Below the pieces are notes generated by a model. It was given only the letters and a program-made list of their open reading frames with translations, did no database searches and was not told the origin of the DNA. Of a stretch of DNA of 64,000 bases, positions 4,221 to 7,200 are shown one piece after another. The translations under genes were made by a program, and so were the position numbers. Source of the stretch: Ascidia mentula (Eukaryota > Chordata > Ascidiacea > Phlebobranchia > Ascidiidae); assembly GCA_947561715.1 (NCBI GenBank), contig OX387204.1:6205001-6269000 (forward strand), written 5' to 3'. Each line of letters starts with the position of its first letter. The first letter of the stretch is position 1.

Positions 4221-7200
4221 CTAAAAATGTTCTCATCATAAAAACTTTCTTGCAAAATAATGACCAGCAAAACTGATATGAAAACATTGGCCCATGAAAT
4301 AAAAATGTTTGCAAAAAAATAAAATAAACCATGCTTGACAATATAACAAATCTCACTTACCAAGCAACTTCTCTCTAGTCATGTGCACTCAACATTGGCT
4401 TGTTTTCTTAATTACTGTGTTGTCTGCTGATAAAAGGCTTGGAAGCAAGCGATTTTTTTACTCACTATTGCTAAATCTAATCGCGAAAAAACAGACAAAT
4501 TAATTGGCAAAAAGTCTGTGATTTTGTATTTAATTTCACATTTGACTTTGTTTCACTTTGTGACTTTTTTCTTTAATACTAACTATTAGTTGCTGGATTT
4601 ATCTTTAATTTGTGTCAAAAGAAGGCCAAAGTAAATCTGCACTAATTGCTGCAGATGAGCAAGCCTACCATTGTGGCAACATTACCCATCATAATTTTCC
4701 CTTCATCAGAAACAAAACATATCAAGTGCTATGTACAGGTTTTTTATTGTGGATTTCACTGCCAACAAAATGTGACATTTTCCAAATTTGTGATTTGTGT
4801 CATATCCCAAGTGAGGTAGACAAAAAATACTGCATGTTGTGTGTTCATGAGTTTGGGCCACACTGTTGGCAGGGCAAAATACTTAAAAGCACCATGTTAT
4901 GCTGATTGTCATGAACAACATATTTACAAAGGGGTGCAGTGGCTTTAACGTACCCGTTTAAAGATTTGTAGCCTTGCATTAAAATATATGAAGTAAATGC
5001 ATTATGCGTACCCAAATTATTGTGCCTTGCGGAGGTTAAAAATGTATATGAAATGACTTCAAGTGGTAACAACCTGGAACAGGCAAATTGACATTAGTAA
5101 AGGTAAAACTGTACAGGAAAATATATGCTGATGTTAGGTGCCGAATTATATGGAATTGTAAACGGAGTTTTATATACACATGGCAATTACAATCACCAGT
5201 CCATTTGAGCAGTGCGCTGGGCCTGCACATCATTCAGGGGAGCCTGTTCTGGAGTTGGAGGGGCCATTGGGGGTGGAGCAGCTCCAGAAACCAAACTAGA
5301 TCTAAGCAAAGATGAAACCACAGCTCCAATGAGAACAATGGACACAATTACACCGATCACAATCAAAACAACTGGAAGCAGAGTTCCTGTTGCTGCCTCT
5401 GGTGAAAATTCTTCCTCTTTGGGTGAATCAGGTGGAAGTGCGAAAAATGCCAACTCGTCACCCAAATCTGGCTCAACGTTGACAGTTTCAGGTGTGGGGG
5501 TCTCGGTGACCACTGCCGGTGGAGCAGTGTCCGGTTGCTCATCAGCGCCACCATGGCCGTTTAAGCCGTCATCATCGGCTGCCGCGCCTGAGTCTGCACC
5601 TCCAGCAAGAGCGTCTTCACCTGGAGCATTGGGGTCAACCACGTCTGGACGAATCACCTCTGTACCAACTGACACCTTGAGAAAAATTTCACAACCTTTT
5701 ATTGGCGCCGACTTGGACAACTGGCCATCTCCCACCATATCTCATGCAGAAATTGAAAACCGACACCTTTGTTTTTCAATTAGAAAGCTCAAGCAAGCAC
5801 ATGATAGAATATGTGAAGGACTGTGTCTTCACCTGACAGGGTAGGTCTAAACTACCTTGGTGAAACATCACATTCATGCAAAGCAATCGAGAGCAAGTTT
5901 CATAAAAGACCCGAAGCAGTTTGTTAATAGAATGAAGCCGAAAGCACCGAAAACTCTACGATTTGAAAAACCACCAAAGTTGAAACCATCACCTCTACAG
6001 CGTTAGTTGCATGTGCAACCATCTGTTGCACCAGTCTTAAAAAGCCAGAATATGAAGAATCAGGATGTATAAGCGACATGCACAAATTTTTATTTTTTAC
6101 CGACATGCTGTGTATGTTACAACGTAACATACCACCAACAGGCTTTCTTGAATGAGATAAGAAAGACAAGTACAGAAAATTTGCATAATCACGTCAAGAC
6201 GGATTATAACATGAAGACTGAAAAAACTACGTTAAAAAACACGCTACAAAAAAACACCAAAATACTATTTACAAATTTAATTTCAACAATTTTTGTCGTT
6301 ACTATGCTGATTTTGTAGACTTGTACGTAAACCGAAAATACGCAAAGAAAATAATCAAATCACATGATAAATTGATTTGCATTTCCATAGTTAAATCACC
6401 TTTGATTTGAAGCAAGCACCATGCGTGTATGAAAAATAAGGTCGATATTGGCACCAAAACATGGTTAGCAACAAAGCGTAATGGTTTGATGCATTGAAAA
6501 GTTAGTGACATGCAAATGAGCGGTATTAATAACGTGTGCAATTCATCTGACTAATTAATTTTCAAAATTTATGGCAGATGTCCAGTAAACGAGTTGTGCA
6601 ATTTTACATAAAAACGCGCTAGTTCAACCACAACTAATATTTGCAAGACGGTTTAAGATTATGCACAACACCTGCTTCTAACAGTTGCACATGAAAATGA
6701 AAATGGCGGCGAAATTTTTTGTCCGCAAACCCCCGCGTGGTTTACAGTAGCTCGGATACCTCTGGGTCTTTGACAGCTATGATGGTGCCAGTGGAAGTGT
6801 TTGAACTTATGGCAACCATGCCATCGAGCTGTGCGTCGCGCAATCCTGATGGAGTCATAATGTACGAAGTGCCATCGAGGTTGAGGTCTTCGGCGGTCTA
6901 AAGGATACGAGAGTAAAGTTAGTGTTGCGTGGCGTAAAGTTTAAACAGAGTACTAAGGCTTGTTAGTCGTAAGTATCGATGTTCCCAGTTCCAAATTATC
7001 CGGCCCGGCCGGATCCGGATAGTTGTCAATCAAATCCGGCCGGATAATTTGGATCCGGCAGTTTGTTAACGCCGATCCGTTTATTATGACAAAAATGTTT
7101 GATTGCCAAACAGAATGCTATGTTAAGGTTAGCCTGTCATGAGTGGAACAAATAAACGTGGGCATTCATCAATATGGTATAACACGTCACGAAAAACCTT

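Follow-up and report, generated by a model that had tools for sequence, protein, structure and literature searches.

A conserved exon encoding a putative membrane anchor within the LG3 intron of a laminin alpha gene of Ascidia mentula

To our knowledge, known laminin chains are secreted proteins whose hold on cells depends on receptors. Usherin has LN, LE and LG domains and occurs in secreted and transmembrane isoforms; as far as we know, it is not a laminin chain and has no heterotrimer coiled coil. The subject of the present analysis is a candidate alternative last exon (5675-5193, the tail exon) inside the intron that divides the LG3 domain of a laminin alpha gene, which occupies the minus strand of a 64,000-nucleotide window of the ascidian Ascidia mentula (contig OX387204.1, positions 6,205,001 to 6,269,000; the window is the whole stretch analysed, and all positions below refer to it unless stated otherwise), within a genome of 196 Mb in 79 contigs. 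Observed directly were the exon, its open frame, its conservation in database proteins, the ordinary laminin gene around it and a matching intron in a second laminin-alpha-like gene; from these we infer a laminin-to-tail splice, a membrane form and the function that such a form would have.

Excerpts of a 2024 review of polymerising laminins present these proteins as secreted, with receptors binding them to cells. In LaNt alpha31, according to excerpts of PMC9788559, intron retention with intronic polyadenylation in LAMA3 lets one laminin alpha gene give a truncated second product, the transcript ending in an intron and the new C-terminus being intron-encoded, as proposed here; unlike in LaNt alpha31, the cut in the present gene falls in LG3 and the new end would be a transmembrane anchor, and the word 'transmembrane' is absent from the main text of that review. 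Transmembrane agrin, as excerpted from PMC4210653, is a type II protein made from an alternative first exon, and is comparable in that an alternative terminal exon gives a matrix protein, also with LG domains, both a secreted and a membrane-anchored form; its anchor is N-terminal and type II, whereas the putative laminin anchor would be C-terminal and type I. With laminin alpha3 and alpha5 chains the gene shares an LN piece nearest alpha5, LE domains, one L4 in two exon pieces, a coiled coil and LG1-5, but those chains are, as far as known, secreted and the proposed isoform would be membrane-anchored. In the matching passages of the open-licence literature, 'transmembrane laminin' was used only for laminin-binding receptors and 'membrane-anchored laminin' was not found, and among the matches listed no title or abstract opening described a membrane-anchored laminin isoform.

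The tail exon and its conservation

The 3' part of the laminin alpha gene was modelled over 12603-1323 (minus strand; 27 exons and 26 introns, encoding coiled coil and LG1-LG5, with the stop at 1325-1323). The LG3 intron (6759-4221, minus strand) measures 2,539 bases and is the longest of the 26, the remaining 25 spanning 51-563 bases. The coding part of the tail exon (5675-5193, minus strand) consists of 160 codons (5675-5196) followed by TGA (5195-5193), so the open exon that a sequence-only reading had placed in this intron, on the laminin strand, is borne out, and it proved to be conserved in four database proteins. The frame is open over 5741-5196; its part upstream of the acceptor (5741-5676, minus strand) includes an ATG at 5738 and ends in a polypyrimidine stretch and an AAG acceptor.

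Hydropathy, charge and AlphaFold agree with the acidic stalk, single strong hydrophobic helix and proline-rich tail that had been described for the encoded protein. The stalk (residues 1-98) lacks cysteine and has 23 acidic residues against 2 basic ones, the only hydrophobic segment is the transmembrane helix (residues 99-122, best 21-residue mean hydropathy 3.15), encoded in frame with laminin, and residues 123-160 form a short proline-rich tail, predicted to be cytoplasmic. AlphaFold, run with a five-sequence alignment, gave only two structural elements, a helix at 99-131 and a short one at 147-158, at a mean predicted local distance difference test score of 56.7 (blocks 101-120 near 90). 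No relatives of the tail were found in the PDB up to an expectation value (E) of 1, and a Pfam match to DUF6479 over the transmembrane region fell under the cut-off and was dropped.

Frame length by itself is only moderately unusual and not decisive: in two sets of 1000 simulated introns, 6 (order-1) and 9 (order-2) had an open run of at least 182 codons, and the real intron is itself open for 211 codons in antisense. This antisense frame (5209-5844, plus strand) is interpreted as a shadow of the conserved frame on the minus strand.

A search of 5.8 billion proteins returned four tail relatives, P0001-P0004, among 665 candidates (E 2.2e-42, 8.9e-22, 3.6e-15 and 1.2e-11, respectively); none of the four has a listed Pfam domain, and no further relative was confirmed among 103 pattern matches in viral_contigs and 70 in genome_contigs. 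Across all five sequences, identity covers 15 of 24 positions in the transmembrane helix, 15 of 21 in the C-terminus and, in the stalk, 4 of 98 columns, one of them a first-residue artefact (M from an initial GTG read as start; the column is left out of the conservation argument and counted in the stalk figures). Identity to P0001 amounts to 46 of 84 aligned stalk residues (artefact included), 22 of 24 transmembrane residues and 20 of 21 C-terminal residues. As aligned, conservation peaks in the membrane and C-terminal parts, and because the tail exon is conserved in four database proteins, it is judged to be real coding sequence. That it is left over from an older gene and has lost its expression in this animal is very improbable, given an intact frame and strong conservation of the transmembrane helix and C-terminus.

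All five sequences are net acidic before the transmembrane helix and carry one basic residue within ten residues after it. By the positive-inside rule, which is established and predicts the side of the membrane, the N-terminus is therefore predicted to lie outside and the C-terminus inside. In the five frames as called, those of the relatives beginning at the start codon chosen by their gene caller, hydropathy revealed no signal-like hydrophobic stretch before the transmembrane helix (best 10-residue means 0.05-1.38). Since the predicted topology is N-out and a signal-like start is lacking, an upstream exon should supply the signal peptide.

No second copy of the tail was found in the animal's own genome, two extra matches (E 1.26 and 4.67) being at chance level, and this search gave no sign of a second locus owning the tail. 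In a search of the 196 Mb genome that skips very common words, the tail (5193-5738) and two flanking stretches (4230-5170 and 5760-6740) each match only themselves. An origin from a transposon is thus unsupported for both the exon and the enlarged intron, although, with very common words skipped, this is not proof.

Splice sites and the readings of the exon

The preferred reading, at a little short of an even chance, is that the laminin alpha gene uses 5675-5193 as an alternative last exon. The tail exon would be spliced to laminin from 6760, or from 7451 with the half-LG3 exon skipped, and the transcript would be polyadenylated near 4748. The resulting chain would end past LG1-2 with an acidic stalk, one transmembrane helix and a conserved cytoplasmic tail; such a product, a type I membrane-anchored laminin alpha, would keep the LN domain, LE arms and coiled coil and lose LG4-5 plus all or most of LG3. 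Splicing from 6760 to 4220 would yield the ordinary secreted chain, and a donor as weak as 6760, with a very long intron behind it, would leave the choice open to adjustment.

The laminin exons concerned, all on the minus strand, are the exon ending LG2 (7583-7451; last cysteine in GCIKE, phase 0 at its end), the exon with the first 46 residues of LG3 (6897-6760; phase 0 at both ends, donor CCAGAG/gtatcc) and the next exon, which supplies the rest of LG3 in the ordinary chain (4220-4087; acceptor ...tttttag/ACAAATG). The intron ahead of the first LG3 exon (7450-6898) has several short CCGGATCCGGCCGGATAAT-type repeats and may hold a transposon remnant. Splice scores were built from the laminin gene's own sites, with its single GC donor left out, and on this scale donor 6760 is the weakest of the 25 scored (2.27 bits leave-one-out, next 4.03). 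The phase match claimed earlier between the upstream donor and the exon holds, both 6760 and 5675 being phase 0; phase 0 was found in 10 of the 26 introns of the modelled part, so the match alone is worth little. Phase match, weakest donor and longest intron (next 563 bases; second gene's counterpart 64) together speak for a laminin alternative last exon.

The sequence-only reading had named 6760 as the upstream donor, correctly as to phase, but had overlooked 7451, the second laminin donor in frame with the tail exon. The 7451 to 5675 splice skips the half-LG3 exon, leaves LG2 whole and ends cleanly past the last LG2 cysteine; from 6760, 46 residues of half LG3 are retained. If a fusion exists, 7451 to 5675 would fit the end of LG2 better than 6760 to 5675. 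The AATAAA reported downstream of the exon is present at 4748-4743 (minus strand), about 445 bases past the tail stop, with a T/GT-rich stretch after it, and is the only copy after the tail stop inside the intron; it is weak evidence, because the motif occurs three times in the intron.

The weak donor and long intron would also suit a conserved coding exon that serves mainly for control, splicing into the tail ending the transcript early and lowering full-length laminin, with little use of the protein; LaNt alpha31 offers a precedent, for which a second layer of control is proposed in excerpts of PMC9788559. Purely regulatory use gives no reason to expect an invariant transmembrane helix and C-terminal tail, and this explanation is considered improbable.

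Nearly as likely as the laminin alternative last exon, and a real if clearly less than even prospect, is a small, independent nested gene on the laminin strand of this intron, either with its own promoter and a short signal-peptide first exon spliced to 5675, or with an unspliced or trans-spliced message from ATG 5738. A hypothetical signal-like first exon of 18 codons was located at 6186-6133 (minus strand; hydrophobic start, phase 0, donor score 6.35), and ATG 5738 opens the tail frame; however, chance also produces short first exons of this kind, the same scan having accepted four starts that use three donors outside laminin exons, and the unspliced start lacks a signal-like stretch. For the 21 residues before 5675, neither P0002 nor P0004 has anything visibly similar (in P0001 and P0003 the called frames do not extend to this part), which also counts against a nested gene.

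The following observations weigh against a laminin alternative last exon. Acceptor 5675 (tttttctcaag/GTG, phase 0) has the polypyrimidine tract claimed for it but is only average, 5 of 27 real acceptors of the gene scoring lower, and it ranks 11th of 119 AGs scored within the intron; it is within the range of real acceptors but not exceptional. The 6760 splice cuts LG3 in half. The proposal that the exon is a membrane anchor replacing LG3-5 stands in so far as the exon is coding, conserved, in phase, predicted N-out/C-in and without a signal-like start of its own, but no fused protein of about 345-1097 residues was found among 515 candidates, longer ones not having been searched; the query was LG1-LG3 plus tail, the tail alone was scored, and the database's share of spliced animal proteins is not established. 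The missing fusion counts for the nested gene, as does the failure to link the tail relatives to laminin: with the LG4 exon and the following exon as query, one relative was obtained among five candidates (P0005, 65% identity), and its contig (1,268,866 bases) is none of the tail-relative contigs (longest 3,872; 34,909; 108,254; 22,782). Judged from these contigs, tail-laminin synteny in other species is unsupported, which mildly favours a nested gene. At third codon positions the tail has a GC of 0.385, which resembles that of the 11 modelled exons downstream of the LG3 intron (0.348) and not that of the 16 upstream (0.572), though intron GC shifts across the same boundary too (0.372 to 0.292); the change is read as a regional shift, evidence for neither the laminin exon nor the nested gene.

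The host gene and a second laminin-alpha-like gene

Pfam matches on the same strand identify LN, LE, L4 and coiled-coil regions in the host gene, as in laminin alpha chains, in the order LN pieces (about 30.1-28.5 kb), LE exons, one L4 split over two exon pieces, coiled-coil exons and LG1-5; matches to Laminin_I, Laminin_II and one of the two L4 pieces are under the cut-off, and Laminin_II was uninformative as a means of listing the laminin genes of the genome. The LN-domain exons (30148-28508, minus strand) comprise three Pfam pieces, the middle one having laminin alpha-5 as its best PDB match. Because one LN exon matches alpha-5 far better than alpha-1 among solved laminins (103.8 vs 61.5 bits), the host gene is taken as alpha3/5 type. 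Once spliced, all 27 modelled exons give an open frame that includes the five C-terminal LG domains; a 24-base micro-exon (9253-9230) was dropped, as it introduces a stop into the laminin frame. Compared with solved LG proteins in the PDB, LG1-3 match neurexin-1-alpha best and laminin alpha-1 second, with laminin alpha-2, alpha-5 and agrin also matching, and the alpha-1 structural alignment crosses the exon junction within LG3. The intron between the LG4 and LG5 exons (2254-2184) apparently has a GC-AG donor.

A second laminin-alpha-like gene was recognised by tblastn, its LG part at C69:7,471,001-7,481,000 and its LN pieces upstream on the same strand. Its first LG3 exon also reads phase 0 at both ends, and its LG3 intron, of only 64 bases, lies within about 2 residues of the same place; given this matching phase-0 intron, the LG3 intron probably predates the duplication of the two laminin-alpha genes. 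Of these two genes, only the alpha3/5-type one has the tail exon. Vertebrate laminin alpha2 is cleaved in LG3, and a furin-like RRRR occurs in LG3 of both genes (window 3947-3768; L006 6794-6621), the two motifs lying in different exons, one on either side of the LG3 intron. Beside the second gene (L006 1-2505, minus strand), a mucin-like open frame composed mostly of TTQELQTTEAMA-type repeats spans at least 835 codons and continues past the edge of the retrieved sequence.

Implications

The observation made by the sequence-only reading is confirmed and strengthened by conservation, and its interpretation, modified to include two possible donors, is plausible and partly supported. We tentatively propose, at somewhat less than even confidence, that this lineage makes a transmembrane laminin: through an alternative last exon in its old, phase-0 LG3 intron, the alpha3/5-type gene would replace LG3-5 by a type I anchor with a strongly conserved cytoplasmic tail. 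A cell could then display a polymerising laminin attached covalently to its membrane and sense the matrix directly via that tail, with no need of integrin or dystroglycan. Excerpted accounts regard laminins as secreted and needing receptors to hold on to cells. If true, a laminin that carries an anchor and a cytoplasmic tail could initiate basement membrane on the cell that makes it and could also signal directly. Even if the laminin fusion fails, a conserved, unnamed transmembrane protein inside a laminin gene awaits description.
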